The translations under genes were made by a program, and so were the position numbers. From assembly GCF_007990445.1 (NCBI RefSeq), contig NZ_AP019841.1:806001-870000 (forward strand): DNA of 64,000 nt, in the 5' to 3' direction. The notes beneath the pieces are model-generated. The model ran no database searches. It saw nothing but the letters and a program-made list of their open reading frames with translations, and was not told the origin of the DNA. Shown here in pieces: positions 28,862 to 39,424 of this stretch (positions are counted from its first letter, which is position 1; each line of letters begins with the position of its first letter). The DNA comes from Leptotrichia wadei. GTDB lineage: Bacteria; Fusobacteriota; Fusobacteriia; Fusobacteriales; Leptotrichiaceae.

Positions 28862-28901
28862 AAAAAAAACAAGAGAATAATTATTTTCTAAACTCTTGTT
28901 T
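28862..28901 (-). terminator. Terminator of the seven-gene lipid operon
   Basis: On the minus strand AAACAAGAG (28901-28893) pairs with CTCTTGTTT (28875-28867), followed by Ts. It lies 8 bases after the UbiA stop codon and marks the end of the operon. Confidence 0.85.
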
Positions 28902-28908
28902 CTTTAAT

Positions 28909-29973
28909 TTATTTTATCAAGCTAAATACAAAATACGGAAGAAGCCCCAGCCCCATACTAGAAAAAACAATCCAAAGCCCCGATACGCTTTCTACAATTT
29001 TCCCCGATAAATCCTTTTTCAAAAATTTTATCATAAAATATATTGAAATTATCAGAATTATAAGCAGTACCAATCCGCTGAATAAAAAATATTTTTCATA
29101 AGTATAAGAAAGTCCAAGAATGACAAGAAAATATTCAACAGCAAAAAGTAAACTTAAAATTACTACAGCCTTTTTCTTTCCCCAAAGTTTACTATAAGTC
29201 TGCACTCCATGTTCCTCTTCATCAGCTCTTCTCGTTTTTCTTCCTATTTCCAGTACGATTCCATTTAAATAATTTAATGCGAAAAGAGGAATTAATGCAA
29301 AATCAATATTATGTTTATACCATTGTAATATAAAAACGTCAAAAATATTTTTTGGTACAATGTATTGTGTAGCTTCTACAATAACAAGAGTAATGAATAC
29401 CATTATTACAACGTGGGAGAGAGCATAAATCAAAATTCTTTTTGTAAGCCATTTTTTTATAAAAAATTCCTTTGCCATTAAGAACATATAAATCCATACA
29501 AATATCATAAAATAGATAATTTCAGGATCTATAACGTGTGCAAGCATTATTTGTATTATAACAGTTGCAATTCCTATTTTTCTCAACGCTTTTAACGAAA
29601 TTACACCTCTTTGAACAGGTCTGTAAGGCCTATATTTTAAATCTTCTTCATAATCCTTAAATTCATCTGTAATTCTCAACTGAAAGAAAAACATGAATAT
29701 TATGATAAACAAAGGAAGAAATTTATACCAGATTATTGGTACTTTATCAATTTCTTTATCCCAGAATAGTAGCACTCTATTGACTTCTTTTGACAAAGTT
29801 GGCTTTATAATTTTTGAATTATATAGTAATCCTGTAAAAATATATCCTGACAAAGTAAAAATCAGTACAAAAAATGAATTTTTTCCTAATGGAAACCGTT
29901 CATTCAGATATATTTTGAAGTTTTTTATATTTTGGATTATTGATTTTTTTGAATTTATATTACTTTGGTTCAT
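28909..29973 (-). CDS. UbiA-family prenyltransferase
   Basis: A 354-residue integral membrane protein with about eight to nine helices. The first Asp-rich site reads RITDEFKDYEEDLKYRPYRP and the second GRKTRRADEEEHGVQTYSK, both at UbiA-family positions; the second is typical of (D/E)xxxD-G-x-TY. These enzymes move a prenyl group from its diphosphate to an acceptor. No quinone genes are adjacent. It is the last gene of a tight seven-gene operon whose other members suggest an unusual lipid, so the acceptor may be a polar lipid head group rather than an aromatic ring. Confidence 0.8.
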   Translation of the reverse strand: MNQSNINSKKSIIQNIKNFKIYLNERFPLGKNSFFVLIFTLSGYIFTGLLYNSKIIKPTLSKEVNRVLLFWDKEIDKVPIIWYKFLPLFIIIFMFFFQLRITDEFKDYEEDLKYRPYRPVQRGVISLKALRKIGIATVIIQIMLAHVIDPEIIYFMIFVWIYMFLMAKEFFIKKWLTKRILIYALSHVVIMVFITLVIVEATQYIVPKNIFDVFILQWYKHNIDFALIPLFALNYLNGIVLEIGRKTRRADEEEHGVQTYSKLWGKKKAVVILSLLFAVEYFLVILGLSYTYEKYFLFSGLVLLIILIISIYFMIKFLKKDLSGKIVESVSGLWIVFSSMGLGLLPYFVFSLIK

Positions 29974-30010
29974 TTATTTCTCCTCTTACAATATTATATA
30001 TAAATAGATT

Positions 30011-30394
30011 TTACTGACAATAGAAGTCAATCATGGAAAGTAAATATCCTGTATTACTGTCTACTGGTGTACTTTCAATAAAATCTTTAATTTTATACCT
30101 TAATATTAATTTTTTTTCATTATACTGTTCACGCTTTTCAATAGTCATTGCTCTATCCAGAGAATGACTAAACGGACTTCCTGAACTTGCAATGCCTTCT
30201 ATAATTCCCCCTAAAAAATCAAAAAACAGTCCTCTTGTTTTAGAACGCATATGAGTCTGATACTTTTCATCGAGATATGACAAGTCTGCCTCACTCTTTT
30301 CTGCTGAAAGATAGAATCTTTTCAAAGCTCTTCTATCATATAATGAAAATAATTTTAATCCCTCCTGAATTAATTCTTTTGCTTCTGTTTTCAT
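30011..30394 (-). CDS. Unknown 127-residue protein of the lipid operon
   Basis: A soluble, charged protein without signal peptide or recognised domain. It has a Gly/Ser segment near the middle (FFDFLGGIIEGIASSGSPFS) flanked by predicted helices. Gaps of 37 and 26 bases to its neighbours place it firmly in the operon. It could be a small carrier or regulatory subunit, but it has no clear phosphopantetheine site. Confidence 0.65.
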   Translation of the reverse strand: MKTEAKELIQEGLKLFSLYDRRALKRFYLSAEKSEADLSYLDEKYQTHMRSKTRGLFFDFLGGIIEGIASSGSPFSHSLDRAMTIEKREQYNEKKLILRYKIKDFIESTPVDSNTGYLLSMIDFYCQ

Positions 30395-30420
30395 AAAATT
30401 TCCTTTCTGAATTTAAATTT

Positions 30421-31956
30421 TTAAAGTTTTTCAACTATCTCTTCCAGCCTTTTATAATCCGTCTTGCTGTTATGCCTCTTATCCATTGGAATTTCAGTTT
30501 CGATTATTTTAAATATTCCAAATTTTTCTTTTAATTCTTTAATTTCACTATCCTCAGACAAATCTCCTTTAAATTCAGGGTTTCTTTCAGCAAAGAGGTA
30601 TAATTTATCATCTTTTGAAGTAAGAACAGATTTTTTCAAGTTTTTGCAAAATGAAAAGGCAGTTTCTACAGTAAAGGGATAATAAATGTTTTCTTCAATC
30701 TGTATTCTTCCTTTAACCCTTCCAAGCAGTATAAGTTGCCCTTTTCTGTTAATATATCCCATATCTCCTGTCCTATGCCAGTTTTCATCAGGATTTTTTT
30801 CAACATTTAGGTAACCATTGACTACATTTTCTCCTCTTACAAGTATTTCACCTTTTAATTCTGAAGAATCTTTAACATTGTCTGATTTTTCTAGTTTTTC
30901 TATTTTAAGCTCTATTTCATTAACTATTTTCCCAGCCAGCAGCCCTTCTCCATTTTTCATATTTTCAATATCTTCTTTTGTTATATCTTCAAAATTTAAT
31001 GATGATATTGGCTCAGCTTCCGAAGCTCCATATAAGGCTGTAATTTTTGCATTTGTAAAGACCTTTTTAATTTTTTCCATAAGGCTGTAAAAAACAGGAG
31101 CACCACCTGTATATACCTTTTGAACATTTTCAAGCGTTATTTTTTCATCTTTGCAAAATTTTACGATATTTTCAAATATTGCAGGAGGGAGAATGACATT
31201 TTGAATATTATTTTCCATTATTTGCTGAACAATATTTTTAAAATTTGATTCTGCAGGTTTTTTCCAGTTTAAATCAGGAATAAAAGTAGTTGTTCCTGTG
31301 GCAATGTGGGAAAAAAGAAATATTGGGAATGAAGAATAAACCGATGTTTCCTTTTCAAATTTTATATTTTTTTCAAGTACATTATGCTGTCCCAGCAAAA
31401 ATTTATGAGTTCTCATAATAATTTTAGGAAATCCAGTACTTCCACTTGTAAAACTGATAAGAGCTGGTGTATCTTCTTCAATTTTTTCATAATTCTCAAT
31501 TTTTTTATTTTCTTTTACTTGACAATTTTCATTTATTGAAAATTTTTCAGAGTATTCCATCACTTTAATATAATTAATTTTTTTCCCAATTTTTCTGATT
31601 CCTTTTAGAAAAAATCCCTTCAAAAGTGTTTTTCTGCTTCCAATTATCCCATCAGGCGAAATCATCTCACAGCATTTATTAATATGCTCAATCCCAGCAT
31701 AAGGGTCAATAAATACAGCCTGTATTCCCATTTTAAATATTGCTGTCAAAATCAAGTAAAATTCCACTCCAATTGGAATAAAAACTACAATTTTATCTCC
31801 TTTTTTAAAATTTTTTTTCCTTAAATAATCACATACATAATTTGATTTTTCATCTATTTGGGTAAAAGTAACTTTTTTGCCTGTATTCAAGTCAAATAAA
31901 GCTGTCTTATCTGGATAAAGACTTCTTAATTCTTTTATTTTGTCAACTATTGTCAT
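30421..31956 (-). CDS. Acyl-adenylate-forming enzyme (acyl-CoA synthetase-like)
   Basis: ANL superfamily protein of 511 residues that activates a carboxylic acid with ATP. The phosphate loop reads ISFTSGSTGFPKIIMR, and the later motifs are YTGGAPVFYSL, ALYGASEAEP, WHRTGDMGYIN and GRVKGRIQIEENIYYP. The C-terminal lysine region (KRHNSKTDYKRLEE) is present. The general layout is like long-chain fatty-acid CoA/AMP ligases and OleC-type proteins. In this operon it probably activates a fatty acid for the GNAT or for a lipid acceptor. Confidence 0.85.
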   Translation of the reverse strand: MTIVDKIKELRSLYPDKTALFDLNTGKKVTFTQIDEKSNYVCDYLRKKNFKKGDKIVVFIPIGVEFYLILTAIFKMGIQAVFIDPYAGIEHINKCCEMISPDGIIGSRKTLLKGFFLKGIRKIGKKINYIKVMEYSEKFSINENCQVKENKKIENYEKIEEDTPALISFTSGSTGFPKIIMRTHKFLLGQHNVLEKNIKFEKETSVYSSFPIFLFSHIATGTTTFIPDLNWKKPAESNFKNIVQQIMENNIQNVILPPAIFENIVKFCKDEKITLENVQKVYTGGAPVFYSLMEKIKKVFTNAKITALYGASEAEPISSLNFEDITKEDIENMKNGEGLLAGKIVNEIELKIEKLEKSDNVKDSSELKGEILVRGENVVNGYLNVEKNPDENWHRTGDMGYINRKGQLILLGRVKGRIQIEENIYYPFTVETAFSFCKNLKKSVLTSKDDKLYLFAERNPEFKGDLSEDSEIKELKEKFGIFKIIETEIPMDKRHNSKTDYKRLEEIVEKL

Positions 31957-31974
31957 TTTTATACCGCCTTTTAT

Positions 31975-33009
31975 TTAAAGTTCCTTTATAAACAAAGTAT
32001 ATCTTCTCAATTCATCTCCCAATAGCAATCCTATATTTTTAGATATATTCTTTTCATACATCAAAGCATAAATCACATTTTTATAACCTGATTTTTCCGT
32101 TTCCTTCACAAGTTCATCAATTAAGATATATCCCATTCCTTTTCCGTTATATTTGGGAGAAACTGCAATCGTCTTAAGTATCATTGTTTCTATTTTTCCT
32201 TTATACTGAAGCTCTGCATAATCAGGTATTCCAAACACATAGCCAATTAATTCATCCTTGAGATAAAGCGTTTTAAAGAATTTTTTTACAATTTTATCTT
32301 CATATCTCATATACATTTTTATAAAAATTTCCCTTTCCAGTTCAGAATATAAAAAATTATTTTTAAATGCCTGAATTGTCAAGTCGTAGACTTTATTTAG
32401 TATTTCTAGTATATTTTCGTTTTCAGCAGATTTTACCTTTATATCCTTATAATAATCAAATTTTTTTATTTTTTCAATTTTCTTAGATAGATTTTCCCTT
32501 TTAACAGGATTCATATTTTCCATTATTGTAGAAATATAATTGGCAAGAGGATTAAATCCAGTTTTTTGAAATAATTCCACATAATAGCCTTCATTCCAAG
32601 GTTCCATCAAGAAAGGCTTTCTATTTCCAGTTTTTGTCACATACCGATATGTATTCCAAGTAGTTCCATTCAAAGGCCCAATTATTAATTCAATCCCATC
32701 TTTTTTCAATTCTTCAAAAAGTTCATCAAATATTTTCTTTTCAAATTCTTCTTTTCTATATTTTTCAAAAATCATTACGTTTCCAATATAAGATGTTTTT
32801 TTCTCATTATAATCTGGCCGATTGTGCCACAAATTTAGGCTTCCTGCCATTTTTCCTGCTTCATCTTGAAAAACTATAATTTCTGATGGTCGTTCTATTT
32901 GAATTTTTGCTATTTCATTTTGAGAAATATCATTTTCTGTAACGTATTTTTTTAGATAATCGTTATTTATTTTTTTATTTTCTGTTATTGTATATCTTTT
33001 TATTTTCAT
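31975..33009 (-). CDS. GNAT-type N-acyltransferase
   Basis: A 344-residue protein with a C-terminal GNAT domain: KTIAVSPKYNGKGMGYILID carries the acyl-CoA pyrophosphate loop (here NGKGMG), and VIYALMYEKN follows. The N-terminal half looks like a second, degenerate GNAT fold (SYIGNVMIFEKYR, IIGPLNGTTWNTYRYV), as in tandem GNAT acyltransferases. In an operon with an acyl-activating enzyme, acylation of an amine on a lipid is a fair guess. Function not established. Confidence 0.75.
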   Translation of the reverse strand: MKIKRYTITENKKINNDYLKKYVTENDISQNEIAKIQIERPSEIIVFQDEAGKMAGSLNLWHNRPDYNEKKTSYIGNVMIFEKYRKEEFEKKIFDELFEELKKDGIELIIGPLNGTTWNTYRYVTKTGNRKPFLMEPWNEGYYVELFQKTGFNPLANYISTIMENMNPVKRENLSKKIEKIKKFDYYKDIKVKSAENENILEILNKVYDLTIQAFKNNFLYSELEREIFIKMYMRYEDKIVKKFFKTLYLKDELIGYVFGIPDYAELQYKGKIETMILKTIAVSPKYNGKGMGYILIDELVKETEKSGYKNVIYALMYEKNISKNIGLLLGDELRRYTLFIKEL

Positions 33010-33034
33010 ATTTATAATTTCTCCTGTTTTAATC

Positions 33035-34366
33035 TTATAACATTCCTATTCCCAGTAATAACATTGAGCAAGCAAAAACAATTCCTGAAGTTAAAAATAC
33101 TTTGCTTTCTCCGCTAAGTTCATTTTCCTTTTCAAAAATATAAAAAATCTTCATGCATGTTTCGTAAATAAATATTCCGCCAAACATAAGAATTGCTATT
33201 CCAGTTAGCATTTTAAAATCCAGAATTCTTGACAAAATAAAATAATTTACTAGAAAGAAAACGGCCGCTTTACATATGCTTTCCATCAAAAAGTTCATTC
33301 TAAATGTTTTCCTGTAGATATTTCCGGCATTATCCCTTATTAAATTTATAATTCCAAAAAATAGTGAAAATGAAAAAATATAAATAAGAAACATTTTATT
33401 TTTATCCATTACTATGCTTAATGCAAGCCACATTGATGTGGTAAATGCTATTGCTAATAGCCCTTTTAGCGAGTCCTTAACCTGCCCTTTAACTTTTGGC
33501 GTAAAATGATAATATCCAAGATACATTATTAATGGTGGAACGACCCATTTTATTCCGCCTATAATCATAACGATGTAAAGGAAAAATAAACTTGCAGTTT
33601 GGGCAACTTTTGTAAGAGTAGTTTTTTTTCTATTTAATATTATAATTATAAGAAGCATAACTATTACCCAAAGTTTATACATAAGTTCTCTCGCTGTTAA
33701 ATATAAGTTTAATTTTAGGAACAAATATACGAAAAGCGGGACAAAAATATTATCCAGCCCATTCCACGAAATCATTTCAAGAATCATTGCAAGAATGCTT
33801 AAAAGCAGTGAAACAAGCACGATATTTATACTTTTAATGTTACTGAAAAATAAAAAGAAATTTATGCAAATAAAATATGTTGTAAGAAAAAATGTCACAG
33901 ATCCTTCTACCGACTTTGTTCCAAATCCCGTATCAAACTTATATTTACTATAAAATTCTCCGATAAGAGCCGCAAAGGCATCGGAAAACATAAGTATTAT
34001 AAGCGGAAGTGAATACATTATTTTATCTTCACTTGACACAATCCATAATCCTAAAATACTTATAATAAAATATATATCTCCAAATGTTTTCCTGTTTTTT
34101 GTTTCCAGAACTTTTCTAAATCCAGATATTCTATTTTTTATCAGCCTAATGGAAATAAGCACTGCAAGAAAAATCACTCCAAGTATCATAACCGAACTTT
34201 TTTTCTCAAATATAAACGGAAGAGCCAGTCCCCCAAATCCCGAACCTATATGTAAAATTTTCCGTATAAGTTCTGAATTTAACGTTTCACTTTTTTCAAG
34301 TTTATTTAGCAAAAGAAAAAACATTATAAAACCAATAAAAACAAGTATCATCTTAGTTATTTCCAT
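33035..34366 (-). CDS. Dolichol/phytol-kinase-like membrane protein
   Basis: A 443-residue protein with about twelve membrane helices. The N-terminal half carries the CTP-dependent polyprenol kinase pattern: ELIRKILHIGSGFGGLALPF near residue 32, then LMFSDAFAALIGEFYSKYKF and TGFGTKSVEGSVTFF at about 130-165. These match the SEC59/VTE5 family, which also resembles CDP-diglyceride synthases. The C-terminal half adds membrane helices with no recognised motif; it could be a second kinase or a transport module. The start overlaps the end of the BtaA-like gene by 14 bases, showing translational coupling. Confidence 0.7.
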   Translation of the reverse strand: MEITKMILVFIGFIMFFLLLNKLEKSETLNSELIRKILHIGSGFGGLALPFIFEKKSSVMILGVIFLAVLISIRLIKNRISGFRKVLETKNRKTFGDIYFIISILGLWIVSSEDKIMYSLPLIILMFSDAFAALIGEFYSKYKFDTGFGTKSVEGSVTFFLTTYFICINFFLFFSNIKSINIVLVSLLLSILAMILEMISWNGLDNIFVPLFVYLFLKLNLYLTARELMYKLWVIVMLLIIIILNRKKTTLTKVAQTASLFFLYIVMIIGGIKWVVPPLIMYLGYYHFTPKVKGQVKDSLKGLLAIAFTTSMWLALSIVMDKNKMFLIYIFSFSLFFGIINLIRDNAGNIYRKTFRMNFLMESICKAAVFFLVNYFILSRILDFKMLTGIAILMFGGIFIYETCMKIFYIFEKENELSGESKVFLTSGIVFACSMLLLGIGML

Positions 34367-35519
34367 ATTTTATCACCTTTTCAACTACAAAATCATTATA
34401 AAAAAACGTTTTATCCTTCTCATGAAGTTTTTTATCAAATTCTTCCATTCTTTGAAAATTTTTCCAAATGTTATTTTTCCCGTTTTCTATATTTTCCTTC
34501 ATTTCATTTTCTTTATAATCTAATTTTGATGAATTTCTTTCCACTATCAAGTTCCAGTATGCCAATATTGCACTATTATCAGCATTATCATAAATTTTTT
34601 TCATCAAATTTCTATAATTTTCCAAAGACATATATTCAAATATATCACTTAAATTAAATTTATTTATTTTAAAATCTATTTCATCAAGATATTCTTCCAC
34701 AGAATTTTGAACAATTTCCAATTTGTGAAGATTTTTCTTAATATTTTCAAAATTTTCCCTTCTTAAAAAGTAAGGCAAGCAGTCTAAACGGTAATTTCCC
34801 ATCATAATATAATGAATATAAGGATTTTCATAGCTGTCCAGCTCGCAAAGAGCATACCTGCTTCTTTCCTTCATTTCTTTGGAAATATCTTTTTCTGCAT
34901 ACCTAAAAAATTCCTTATCTCTTCCAAATTTTCCAACTACAGATTTAGAAAGAAATAATTTAAACATCAGTTTCCATCTAAAATTATTCCAATGCTTATT
35001 ATAATATTCCTCTCTTTCCTGTTTCGACTTTTTCTCAAAAAGCCCTTCCACTCTTTTTTTATTATGTATCAAAGGAAGTATTTTTTCCCTAAAAATTTTA
35101 AAGAATTTTTCAAATTTTCCAATATGAATCACCCCAGTTTCAATCGCTTTTCTATTAAGATCCCAATAATCTCTCACATCTTTATCAAGTTTTTCACGTA
35201 TTTTATCATACATCCTAATTCTTTCAGCAGAATTTTTTACTCCCATAAATTCCAGCATTTTTTCATAATCAAAATTTTTAAAAATTTCCCTTTTAAGTTT
35301 AGCAAGAGCAATTTGGGGAAAACTTATATCGAGAGCCACCACTTTTTCAGGATTTTCAGCAAGCATTGAAAATACATTATCTCCTGCCGACAAGATCCCA
35401 AAGCATACATCCTTTTCTTTTATATCAAGACTTTCCAATAATACTTCCGTATCTTCCCAGCATTGGGAATATCTTATCAATGAAAAATCAACTTTATTTT
35501 CTTTTACTTCACTTTTCAA
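34353..35519 (-). CDS. BtaA-like aminocarboxypropyl transferase (DUF3419)
   Basis: A 388-residue cytosolic enzyme. The family start RYSQCWEDTEVLLESLDI is followed by the SAM-binding segment GILSAGDNVFSMLAENPEKV and ALDISFPQIALAKLK. LDSYENPYIHYIMMGNY and YWNLIVERNS fit later parts of the family. Characterised BtaA moves a 3-amino-3-carboxypropyl group from SAM to diacylglycerol to make a homoserine lipid. The usual partner BtaB, which methylates the amine three times, is absent. The lipid could therefore keep a free amine or be acylated by the neighbouring GNAT. Confidence 0.8.
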   Translation of the reverse strand: MKSEVKENKVDFSLIRYSQCWEDTEVLLESLDIKEKDVCFGILSAGDNVFSMLAENPEKVVALDISFPQIALAKLKREIFKNFDYEKMLEFMGVKNSAERIRMYDKIREKLDKDVRDYWDLNRKAIETGVIHIGKFEKFFKIFREKILPLIHNKKRVEGLFEKKSKQEREEYYNKHWNNFRWKLMFKLFLSKSVVGKFGRDKEFFRYAEKDISKEMKERSRYALCELDSYENPYIHYIMMGNYRLDCLPYFLRRENFENIKKNLHKLEIVQNSVEEYLDEIDFKINKFNLSDIFEYMSLENYRNLMKKIYDNADNSAILAYWNLIVERNSSKLDYKENEMKENIENGKNNIWKNFQRMEEFDKKLHEKDKTFFYNDFVVEKVIKYGNN

Positions 35520-35565
35520 TTATGTTCCTCCTAATTTGTTTGTAATTTTAAATTTTTAATAAAAA

Positions 35566-38268
35566 TCAACCATTCAATTTTTTAATAATTCCCGTACTTC
35601 CGTCAAATTGAACCATATCTCCTGTTTTCAGAATACTTGTTGCCCCTTGTACTCCTACTATGGCAGGGATGTTCATTTCCCGTGAAATAATTGCACTGTG
35701 GGATAAAAGGCTTCCCTTTTCTACTATAAGTCCCTTCAATAAAGGAAAAACCATAACCCAGCTTGGATCTGTAGATTTTGTAATGACGATATCTCCGTCT
35801 TCAACTTGAGTATCCATAGGATTTAAGACAATTTTTACTTTTCCTTTTACAATTCCTTTGCTACATCCAGTCCCTTGCAAAGTATTTTCGTCGAGTTGAG
35901 AATTTCCTGCCAAATCTTCATAATAAAAGTTTTCTCCTAGGAATCCTCTTGTTAAAAATCTATCAGGAAGAATTGCCTCTGTTTCGTATTTTTTATATTC
36001 TTCTTTTCGCAGTTCTATAAGTTTTTTTAAGTCAACATCAATTATTGAGCCGTCAATAAGTCCAAAAATTTCATCGACAGTAAGATAGAATACATCTTTT
36101 TCATTATTTATAAGGTTATTATTTTTTAGATGTACTCCCATTTTTTTCATAATCTTTCTGACTGTTCCAAAAACCTTTGTCCGTTCATATCTCAAATTTT
36201 CCCTTAATCGTATAAATTTTTTTGCATAAAATAAAGTTTTTTTCAATAAATATTTTTTTATAGGATTTATTTTCAGGTTGTCATATATTTTTTTCTGTTC
36301 TTCCAATATGTTTCTCTTAGTATGTTCCTGAACATTTTCTGTTATTGAAAGCGAATATATCATTTTTATTAAAAATAAAGGCTCTTCCCTTAATGTTGGT
36401 GCTTCCAGTTTTAGTTCGTGGACTGTCCTGTCACCAAATTTTTCCATATATTCATTCAAAGTAGAATTAAATTCTGCATTTTGAGTTAATTTAAATATTT
36501 CAACAAGTGATTTTTCGTTTTTGTTTATTATATTTCCTATTTCATCTTTTAAAGATTTGTCATTTTTTATCATAAGGCTCATTTTTTTTATATATTTCGA
36601 TGGTTCAACACTAATCATGCTGTTTCCTTCTTGAGCAATAAGTGTATTATGTGCCTTTTCAAAATCTTCCTTTATATATTTTTCAGCCATTTTCTTTGAA
36701 AGTCCAAACCAGACCATTACAAGAAAGTCATTTATAATTGGTATTTCCCAGTTTTTTAAAAATTTATTTTCAAGAAATTTGTAATATTTTTTCAGCTCTT
36801 TTATATTTTTTTTGTTCAAATTACTTTTTTCCCCATTAAGATTTTCAGCTATAATTTTATAAAATTTTTCAGCCTTTTTTTCAATAAGGAACATATTCAT
36901 AAACAAGGTAAATCCAGCCTTAGATTTTTCCAGTTTATTTCTAAATTTTTCCCATCCAGTCATTTTCCCTTCAGCTTCCAGCAAATTCTCATTCAGATTT
37001 TCTTCAGACAATTCTTTTTTTACCCCCATCATCTGTTCCATAAATTTACTATTGCCTTTAGAATTTGGAAACAGCATCAAAAGTTTATACCAGTTTATCA
37101 AGTTGTAATAAACTCGCCCTTTCAGCAATCCAAGCATATTATCATAAACATCCTGATAACTTTCCACAACTTTAGCAGGAACTCCCGTTATTTCTGAAAA
37201 TCTTTTATAAACATCAGAATATGCCTTTCTTATAAAGCTGAATGTAAGTGGCAACGTAATCTCAGGATAACTTTCTACAATATTGCTGTTATCCCATATT
37301 ATTGTGTTATATGTTTTTTTACCTGTTTTTTTCAGTGTAGTTATAGGTCTTGACTGCAATATATATAGTTTTCCCTTTTCAAATGCCCATTCCATATCCT
37401 GAGGCTTTCCATAATATTTTTCAATATTTATAATATTTTCTCCCAGTTCCGTAATTTCAGCATCATTTAAAACCTCATCTTCAACATTTATTTCTTCAAC
37501 TTTTATCCCATGATTTTCAAAATCAAGGCTTTGCTTCACCTTCTTAATCCCTATTTCTTTTTTTATTTCCTTAGTTTCCTTATTATAAATGAACAGATCC
37601 CCATTCTCATCTCCATCCACAATACTTGTCCCTAATCCAAAAGTCCCAGAAATAACAATTTCATCATGATCCCCATTAACAGGATTTACGCTAAATCCAA
37701 CTCCAGCCTTTTCAGAATTAATCATCTCCTGAATTATTACAGCCGGAACATTTACCTCGTTATTTATTTTTCCCTCTTTCCTATATCTCATCACATGAGA
37801 AGAAAACGAAGAAATCCAAACTTCCTTTACTTTTTTCAGCATATTTTCTTTTCTCACATAAAGATATGTTTCAAACTGTCCAGCAAACGAAAAATTACTG
37901 CTGTCTTCCTCAACCGAAGATGACCTGACAGCATAATAGCTCCCATCTTTTACAATTTTTTCAATCTCCCTTTTAAATTCTTCCCTAATCTTATGATTTT
38001 TTATAACTTCAATCATATTTCCAATTTTTTCTTCACTATCTCCCTCAAAAACACTATCCCAATCTGTTATTTCACTTTTACAATATTCCCTTATTTCATC
38101 CAATATAACTTCCTTAAAGTATCTATTAGTAATCACCGAAAAATCAGGCACATTAAACCCATGAATCGCCAGTTCAAATAAATTTTGAGCCTTTTTCCCA
38201 ATTTTTTCTTCAAATGCACTATTTTCATCGTGATTTTTTAACCCGTCAATATTATAAATATATTTCAT
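35566..38268 (-). CDS. PEP synthase/rifampicin-phosphotransferase-like dikinase
   Basis: A 900-residue three-domain enzyme. The ATP-grasp part (about 1-320) has KAQNLFELAIHGFNVPDFSV, YAVRSSSVEEDSSNFSFAGQ, and MEWAFEKGKLYILQSRPIT. A large middle region (about 330-790), rich in Lys and Glu, matches no motif I know. The C-terminal swivelling domain (about 810-900) has the phospho-histidine site GSLLSHSAIISREMNIPAIV. The standard PEP-binding barrel is missing, so this fits the RPH-type architecture, in which ATP is split to AMP, phosphate and a phosphorylated substrate. It is the first gene of the lipid operon and probably phosphorylates the pathway substrate. Confidence 0.8.
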   Translation of the reverse strand: MKYIYNIDGLKNHDENSAFEEKIGKKAQNLFELAIHGFNVPDFSVITNRYFKEVILDEIREYCKSEITDWDSVFEGDSEEKIGNMIEVIKNHKIREEFKREIEKIVKDGSYYAVRSSSVEEDSSNFSFAGQFETYLYVRKENMLKKVKEVWISSFSSHVMRYRKEGKINNEVNVPAVIIQEMINSEKAGVGFSVNPVNGDHDEIVISGTFGLGTSIVDGDENGDLFIYNKETKEIKKEIGIKKVKQSLDFENHGIKVEEINVEDEVLNDAEITELGENIINIEKYYGKPQDMEWAFEKGKLYILQSRPITTLKKTGKKTYNTIIWDNSNIVESYPEITLPLTFSFIRKAYSDVYKRFSEITGVPAKVVESYQDVYDNMLGLLKGRVYYNLINWYKLLMLFPNSKGNSKFMEQMMGVKKELSEENLNENLLEAEGKMTGWEKFRNKLEKSKAGFTLFMNMFLIEKKAEKFYKIIAENLNGEKSNLNKKNIKELKKYYKFLENKFLKNWEIPIINDFLVMVWFGLSKKMAEKYIKEDFEKAHNTLIAQEGNSMISVEPSKYIKKMSLMIKNDKSLKDEIGNIINKNEKSLVEIFKLTQNAEFNSTLNEYMEKFGDRTVHELKLEAPTLREEPLFLIKMIYSLSITENVQEHTKRNILEEQKKIYDNLKINPIKKYLLKKTLFYAKKFIRLRENLRYERTKVFGTVRKIMKKMGVHLKNNNLINNEKDVFYLTVDEIFGLIDGSIIDVDLKKLIELRKEEYKKYETEAILPDRFLTRGFLGENFYYEDLAGNSQLDENTLQGTGCSKGIVKGKVKIVLNPMDTQVEDGDIVITKSTDPSWVMVFPLLKGLIVEKGSLLSHSAIISREMNIPAIVGVQGATSILKTGDMVQFDGSTGIIKKLNG

Positions 38269-38304: not shown

Positions 38305-38333
38305 ATTATACTCTAAAAAATTTATTTTTTAAA
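38305..38333 (-). promoter_or_regulatory. Putative promoter of the seven-gene lipid operon
   Basis: On the minus strand TTTAAA (38333-38328), a 17-base spacer and TATAAT (38310-38305), about 37 bases before the start codon. The rest of the 300-base divergent gap is AT-rich and shows nothing else I can support. Confidence 0.5.
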
Positions 38334-38569
38334 GTTATATGTGTATATTTTTTCATTTGAATTAAAATATAAGAATTTTTTTAAAAATAAGATTTGAATA
38401 TTTTCTTGAATAGCACTTTAAGATTGGGTATAATTTATAGGTAGGGGAATTGAGGAGGTTTTGGAGTTAAATTTTTTTGCTCTGTCCATAAAAATCTTTT
38501 AATTGTATTCTAAAAAAATCTTTGATATACTTAATATTGTAGAATATTTTGCAGGAAAGGGGTAATAAA

Positions 38570-39424
38570 ATGATTGAAATTTTTAAAGAATTTTTAGATA
38601 AGGAACGTCCGTTAAATGAAGGTATTTTGAAAAAACTTCAAAATTATTTGAAGACAGAATTTATATATAATTCAAATGCCATAGAAGGTAATACTTTAAC
38701 TTTGCGTGAAACGGATATAATTCTTCAATATGGGGTAACAATAAAGGGAAAATCGTTAAAAGAACATAATGAAGTAAAAGGGCAGGAATATGCACTGGAT
38801 TTTTTAAATGATGTTTTAAAGACAAAAGAGTCATTATCGGTTAGGATTATACGTGAATTTCATGCTTTAGTGCTGAATGATGACTTTAAAAATAGGGGAA
38901 AATTTAAGCAGGAAAATAATATAATATTGGGAGCGAAATTTCAGACAACTCCATTTTATCAGGTGGAAGAAAAACTGCAAGAACTTATAGATAATTTTTT
39001 AAAAAGTAAAGAGAATATAGTTGAAAAAGTGGCTAAATTTCATGCAGAATTTGAAAAAATACATCCGTTTAATGATGGAAATGGGCGGACAGGAAGGCTT
39101 TTGATGAATTTGGAGCTGATGAAAAATGGTTATCCGATAACAATAATAAAAAATGAAAATAGAAATGACTATTATAATGCTTTAGAAAAAGCACAAGTAG
39201 AGTTTGATTATGAATTGATTATAAAATTTATTAAAAGTAGTATCGAAAATACATTTTGGCTGTACTATAAACATTTTAATGAAGAAACCAAAGAAAAATT
39301 TGAAAATTATTTGGAACAAAATGGTATTAATATAGAAGATTTTTATAAGGAATGGATTGGTAAAAAACCAGAAATATTAATAGATTTACCTAGAAAATGG
39401 CATAATAAAATTAATATGGAGTAA
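38570..39424 (+). CDS. Fic/DOC family protein
   Basis: Probable AMP-transferase of 284 residues. The active motif is complete: HPFNDGNGRTGRL, with catalytic histidine and the anion-binding loop. The N-terminal inhibitory helix carries NSNAIEGNTLTL, matching the (S/T)xxxE(G/N) pattern, so activity is self-inhibited (class II). ATG at 38570, after GGAAAGGGGTAATAA, is the likely start. It stands alone, without a separate antitoxin. Confidence 0.9.
   Translation: MIEIFKEFLDKERPLNEGILKKLQNYLKTEFIYNSNAIEGNTLTLRETDIILQYGVTIKGKSLKEHNEVKGQEYALDFLNDVLKTKESLSVRIIREFHALVLNDDFKNRGKFKQENNIILGAKFQTTPFYQVEEKLQELIDNFLKSKENIVEKVAKFHAEFEKIHPFNDGNGRTGRLLMNLELMKNGYPITIIKNENRNDYYNALEKAQVEFDYELIIKFIKSSIENTFWLYYKHFNEETKEKFENYLEQNGINIEDFYKEWIGKKPEILIDLPRKWHNKINME

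Follow-up and report, generated by a model that had tools for sequence, protein, structure and literature searches.

A widespread gene cassette in Leptotrichia wadei and its possible role in making an undescribed membrane lipid

Overview

A minus-strand operon in Leptotrichia wadei (assembly GCF_007990445.1, contig NZ_AP019841.1, positions 806,001 to 870,000; this 64,000-nucleotide stretch is referred to as the window) holds a conserved core of six genes, encoding a UbiA-superfamily prenyltransferase, a dikinase, a DUF3419 protein, an integral membrane protein termed DGK, a tandem GNAT acyltransferase and an acyl-adenylating enzyme. That these genes form one conserved unit is near certain, and the cassette, probably spread horizontally, occurs in at least fifteen phyla. 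The Leptotrichia copy is tentatively read as one that makes an undescribed membrane lipid, with an aminocarboxypropyl-headed, N-acylated prenyl or alkyl ether lipid as the best reading of its putative product. Chances are about even that a single mobile cassette shared by these phyla makes a new class of bacterial membrane lipid or a prenylated metabolite, by a pathway that would also account for the orphan class I 3-hydroxy-3-methylglutaryl-CoA (HMG-CoA) reductases (HMGRs) of bacteria without HMG-CoA synthase. All of the proteins fall into known superfamilies, and lipid or prenyl biosynthetic operons are already a known kind of system; the cassette is undescribed and its product unnamed in the 5.39 million open-access papers to which the literature search was limited, four of which mention DUF3419 in other contexts, so that the view in a preliminary description of this DNA, that no pathway is known for the gene set, is well supported.

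Conservation and spread of the cassette

A search of 60 genomes that included the window's finds the DUF3419 protein in 14: 10 of 13 genomes of the same genus and four from three other genera of the family Leptotrichiaceae. The remaining five core genes adjoin it in all 13 relatives fetched, and the chromosomal surroundings of the cassette vary within the family. Two large genomes (4.3–4.5 Mb) of one other Leptotrichiaceae genus have the order HMGR-UbiA-dikinase-DUF3419-DGK-GNAT-adenylating enzyme, with cassette proteins 34–50% identical to those of the window.

A DUF3419 alignment was run against 84,980 species genomes; it found 301 relatives, and the analysis used the best 80. These are the closest of the 301, and more distant DUF3419 proteins may occur without the gene set. 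As the query was DUF3419 alone, co-occurrence of the other genes was not built into the search. Hidden Markov models made from the Fusobacteriota proteins find the cassette at nearly all of these 80 loci, many of which come from metagenome-assembled genomes. Besides Fusobacteriota, the loci are distributed across Deinococcota, Verrucomicrobiota, Krumholzibacteriota, Cyanobacteriota, Proteobacteria, Planctomycetota, Bacillota, Gemmatimonadota, Bacteroidota (Rhodothermales), Acidobacteriota, Chloroflexota, Actinomycetota, Desulfobacterota, Latescibacterota and Armatimonadota. Outside Leptotrichia, 33 loci extend 8 kb or more to each side of DUF3419; among these, UbiA and the dikinase are each present at 32, GNAT and the adenylating enzyme each at 29, DGK at 27 and class I HMGR at 21 (about two thirds). 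Cassette genes are nearly always co-directional, with those for GNAT and the adenylating enzyme almost always adjoining one another. The set is also present in isolates, among them Brevibacillus laterosporus, Methylomonas, Alkalilimnicola, Desulfobulbus, Calothrix and Phormidium. The joint function claimed in the preliminary description is thus well supported, six of the seven genes being kept together in distant phyla, and the scan finds these six side by side in many of them; what that description missed is that the cassette is not specific to Leptotrichia and that HMGR is often a member.

For the five commonest genes, pairwise distances in their trees are correlated (r 0.78–0.91, 49 loci), which supports travel as a unit without proving it, shared species history explaining part of the agreement. 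Direct sight of a mobile context is provided by a Roseinatronobacter plasmid with a complete six-gene copy, annotated as UbiA family, PEP-pyruvate-binding, DUF3419, hypothetical, hypothetical and AMP-binding.

Variants of the cassette also occur. Three verrucomicrobial copies (L033:4622-9269, L048:1752-3944 and L058:2542-4725) have no DGK and carry a second dikinase-like protein ahead of DUF3419; in L033 this in turn follows a protein of 840 aa that contains a class III aminotransferase domain. The GNAT gene of the L. hongkongensis cassette is broken into two frames (L018:10082-11112, L029:12955-13985).

Soluble enzymes

The dikinase matches PF01326 (1e-65) and PF00391 (4e-23), and its nearest solved structure is a rifampin-phosphotransferase-type 'PEP synthase' (5fbs, E 6e-70), with the His motif aligned and the catalytic His857 invariant. 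Its predicted architecture, an ATP-grasp, a middle domain and a phospho-His domain bearing the catalytic His, is common to the rifampin phosphotransferase Rph and the prodigiosin ligase PigC. The likeness to Rph holds at both ends of the protein, but the substrate-binding middle domain cannot be aligned to solved Rph and curated cut-offs are missed; with a score of 302 against 999 for the Rph model, identity as a rifampin phosphotransferase was rejected.

The DUF3419 protein (PF11899, 1.6e-62) is a putative S-adenosylmethionine (SAM) 3-amino-3-carboxypropyl transferase of the BtaA family, placed by a tree with a small outgroup sample in a clade apart from the true BtaA that sits beside BtaB (ca. 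23% identity). A different DUF3419 subfamily on rhizobial plasmids adjoins a CoF-synthetase-like and a hypothetical protein (L152:1677-5155, L185:1683-5155).

The GNAT protein (PF00583, 2.7e-11) is modelled by AlphaFold with a pLDDT of 94.5, and Foldseek returns the tandem GNAT MAB_4324 (7q3a, E 3e-14) as its best match, mycothiol synthase also being matched. In the adenylating enzyme (PF00501, 6e-43) the motifs TSGSTG, TGD and DKRHNxK are invariant and the catalytic Lys498 is kept. Its closest named kin are OleC beta-lactone synthetase and the PRK09274 ligases, but its scores (NF006754 319 bits, OlefBLtnSyn 197 bits) are each under the curated cut-off, and the rest of the cassette does not consist of ole genes.

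Membrane enzymes

The UbiA protein exceeds its Pfam cut-off (PF01040, 42.5 bits against 34.2) and contains the two acidic diphosphate-binding motifs, DEFKDxEED...YRPxR and EIGRKxR...DEExG (the second with the pattern ExxRKxR...DEExG), with D/E changes from NDxxDxxxD; the acidic motifs are kept, with Asp/Glu exchanges, in the 36 sequences examined. Among solved structures, digeranylgeranylglyceryl phosphate synthase (6m31, E 6e-6), which forms a prenyl ether of archaeal lipids, is the closest. The cassette differs from archaeal ether-lipid synthesis in that glycerol-1-phosphate dehydrogenase and geranylgeranylglyceryl phosphate synthase lie outside it and that the 42 cassette genomes searched have no HMG-CoA synthase.

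The N-terminal half of DGK aligns with a stand-alone cyanobacterial kinase-type family of ca. 240 aa (hhalign probability 99.9%), which we take to be phytol kinase (VTE5), and is predicted to be kin to the CTP-dependent lipid kinases SEC59, DGK1 and VTE5, its own kinase activity being putative. Invariant residues are D129, G136, K151, G155, E197, D205 and N206. The C-terminal half may have a weak likeness to DUF92 (E 0.02 in one relative, L031; a local match to a DUF92 protein with E 0.01; hhalign 2%), a family that includes the plant phytyl-phosphate kinase VTE6, a producer of phytyl diphosphate. A Foldseek comparison of the DGK model with solved structures gave nothing significant and no solved relative, and the protein has no relatives among viral contigs.

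Linked HMG-CoA reductase

Clustering of neighbouring genes gives one strongly recurrent addition, the class I HMGR, at 35 loci. Class I HMGR is the mevalonate enzyme of archaea, and the cassette protein, aligned with a solved HMGR (6hr7, E 5e-88), retains the catalytic Glu, Lys, Asp and His. HMGR is present in 17 of 42 cassette genomes and HMG-CoA synthase in none of the 42, control genomes having given the expected matches; with respect to the classical mevalonate pathway, this makes the cassette HMGR an orphan, for which leucine breakdown might supply HMG-CoA. In the Leptotrichiaceae, a cassette HMGR occurs in two genomes, which have neither HMG-CoA synthase nor a second HMGR; the synthase is found in nine of nine other genomes tested, cassette present or not. 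The Leptotrichia cassette itself has no HMGR and the genus has its own mevalonate enzymes, HMG-CoA synthase in the window's genome lying beside a different HMGR remote from the cassette. One reading is that these enzymes took over from the cassette HMGR; against it stands the complete lack of HMGR in Clostridia and Melainabacteria carriers. One genome of the genus (G012:C1:1926352-1928145) has a single 826-aa frame that combines HMG-CoA synthase with HMG-CoA reductase, possibly a fusion.

Proposed product and alternatives

Catalytic residues are kept in the dikinase (His), the adenylating enzyme (Lys), UbiA (acidic motifs) and HMGR (Glu, Lys, Asp and His), and a lipid product is proposed because two integral membrane enzymes of prenyl or lipid families accompany a BtaA relative. 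In the proposed route, the DGK-type enzyme would phosphorylate a prenyl or alkyl alcohol at the expense of CTP, and the dikinase, acting through ATP and a phospho-histidine, would either place a second phosphate on that product or activate the acceptor hydroxyl. UbiA would then transfer the prenyl or alkyl chain to a hydroxyl to give an ether, as digeranylgeranylglyceryl phosphate synthase does, and the DUF3419 protein would draw on SAM to attach a 3-amino-3-carboxypropyl (homoserine-type) head. An acid activated by the adenylating enzyme would be placed by the tandem GNAT on the amine of this head. In cassettes that have it, HMGR would reduce a thioester to give mevalonate or a similar alcohol as a building block, which Leptotrichia may draw from its own mevalonate pathway.

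Several points weigh against this proposal. DGK is absent from about one fifth of the loci, and one carrier genome (G063) has no DGK homologue anywhere. No HMGR at all is found in Clostridia and Melainabacteria carriers, mostly metagenome-assembled genomes, so HMGR may be dispensable and not every step obligatory. The site at which UbiA prenylates its substrate could be a carbon or a ring instead of an oxygen, and DUF3419 proteins of the cassette clade may not act on a lipid hydroxyl. The enzyme families are still best read as pointing to an amino-acid-headed or prenylated lipid, as the preliminary description had suggested; its chemistry is inferred throughout and the order of the steps is a guess.

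The co-occurrence of HMGR, adenylating enzyme and GNAT may also be explained by a small secreted metabolite of amino-acid/isoprenoid type, such as one made by adenylating a mevalonate-like acid, moving it with GNAT onto an amine and then prenylating the product. Acid activation and transfer of this sort are carried out by fungal SidI and SidF in siderophores, and an HMGR with all catalytic residues in genomes without HMG-CoA synthase, together with the almost constant adjacency of the GNAT and adenylating genes, fits such a route. It is nevertheless unlikely, given that HMGR seems dispensable, that no exporter or uptake gene recurs in the cassette neighbourhoods and that the set includes two lipid-type membrane enzymes. 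Pairing of phytol kinase with UbiA belongs to tocopherol synthesis, and the phytol-kinase-type half of DGK beside UbiA would suit a quinone- or tocopherol-like product, a redox cofactor or antioxidant whose prenyl group comes from prenyl phosphate made by the DGK-type enzyme; the recurrence of no aromatic-ring gene, cyclase or ring methyltransferase in the neighbourhoods, and the occurrence of the cassette in fermenters such as Leptotrichia, make this improbable.

Membership of DUF3419 in the BtaA family suggests a variant of the betaine-lipid pathway for diacylglyceryl-trimethylhomoserine (DGTS), in which it would make diacylglyceryl-homoserine. This was considered and dropped as very improbable: the cassette has no BtaB methyltransferase, its DUF3419 clade is separate from the BtaB-linked BtaA, four to six further enzymes are kept alongside, and the pathway would leave five other enzymes unexplained. 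No methyltransferase recurs in cassette neighbourhoods, although the BtaA-BtaB pair at L153 does have one. The ebo cluster (EboA-F) is described as widespread and horizontally spread, with a UbiA-superfamily protein, EboC, of unassigned substrate (PMC5133447, PMC6282210). It was likewise dropped, having nothing in common with the cassette beyond that superfamily (EboC model 15 bits, cut-off 250); the eboA-eboF set is not found in cassette neighbourhoods, where HMGR is the only recurrent extra gene. By term search, the papers on lipocone (PMC12419801), Ubi-297 (PMC9235831) and ebo (PMC5133447) deal with other operons. A chance or loose neighbourhood, with a rifampin-inactivating dikinase in it, draws on the resemblance to Rph; it was dropped as well, chance being refuted by the conservation of the set across phyla and the agreement of the trees, and the low Rph score weighing against a rifampin-inactivating enzyme.

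A gene set kept together and moved among so many phyla must yield something useful. Identifying its product, proposed here to be a lipid, would assign a function to the DUF3419 clade, to a family misnamed 'PEP synthase' and to the stray HMG-CoA reductases of bacteria that lack HMG-CoA synthase, and because the carriers include named isolates (Leptotrichia, Brevibacillus laterosporus, Methylomonas, Calothrix), the search for it can begin at once.

Operon structure in the window

The operon consists of seven open reading frames, with intergenic gaps of 46, -14, 25, 18, 26 and 37 bases in transcription order, and all of them lie where the preliminary description had placed them (Table 1). The terminator it had proposed looks real: AACAAGAG...CUCUUGUUUUUU forms a 13-bp stem followed by a U-tract (-14.1 kcal/mol, z = -3.1) and abuts the final stop codon. 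Its promoter is only plausible, for the candidate matches 10 of 12 consensus positions but such sites are barely commoner than chance (77 observed, 66 +/- 7 in shuffles). As to its family assignments, five are confirmed above Pfam cut-offs (PPDK_N with PEP-utilizers, DUF3419, GNAT, AMP-binding and UbiA); Pfam gives no confident family for DGK, supported in its N-terminal half by the hhalign match, or for the 127-aa protein.

Table 1. Features of the operon and its flanks, in window positions
Feature	Position	Strand	Basis
Possible promoter, TTTAAA-17-TATAAT, ca. 36 bases 5' of first ATG	38305..38333	-	Consensus match
Dikinase, 900 aa (PPDK_N ATP-grasp, unknown middle domain, swivelling His domain)	35566..38268	-	Pfam, nearest solved structure, alignment
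DUF3419 protein, 388 aa, BtaA-related putative SAM 3-amino-3-carboxypropyl transferase, TTG start	34353..35519	-	PF11899, tree
DGK, 443 aa, integral membrane protein, N-half phytol/dolichol-kinase type, C-half uncertain	33035..34366	-	hhalign, invariant residues
Tandem GNAT N-acyltransferase (putative), 344 aa	31975..33009	-	PF00583, AlphaFold, Foldseek
Acyl-adenylating enzyme, 511 aa, nearest PRK09274/OleC-type ligases	30421..31956	-	PF00501, motifs
127-aa protein, no known family, accessory gene outside cassette	30011..30394	-	DNA identity, patchy presence
UbiA-superfamily prenyltransferase (putative), 354 aa	28909..29973	-	PF01040, motifs
Intrinsic terminator, directly 3' of last gene	28862..28905	-	Hairpin and U-tract

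The 127-aa gene had been counted as a member of the set, but it is a recent insertion. Its DNA is 92–98% identical in seven carriers whose other operon genes drop to 75–84%, it is 74–75% identical in two further carriers and it is absent from five of the 14; high identity against lower flanks, with patchy presence, points to recent entry into the operon. Distant paralogues of the protein (31%) occur elsewhere, one of them within an apparent trp operon (L149). A Fic-domain protein is encoded divergently from the operon at window positions 38549-39424.

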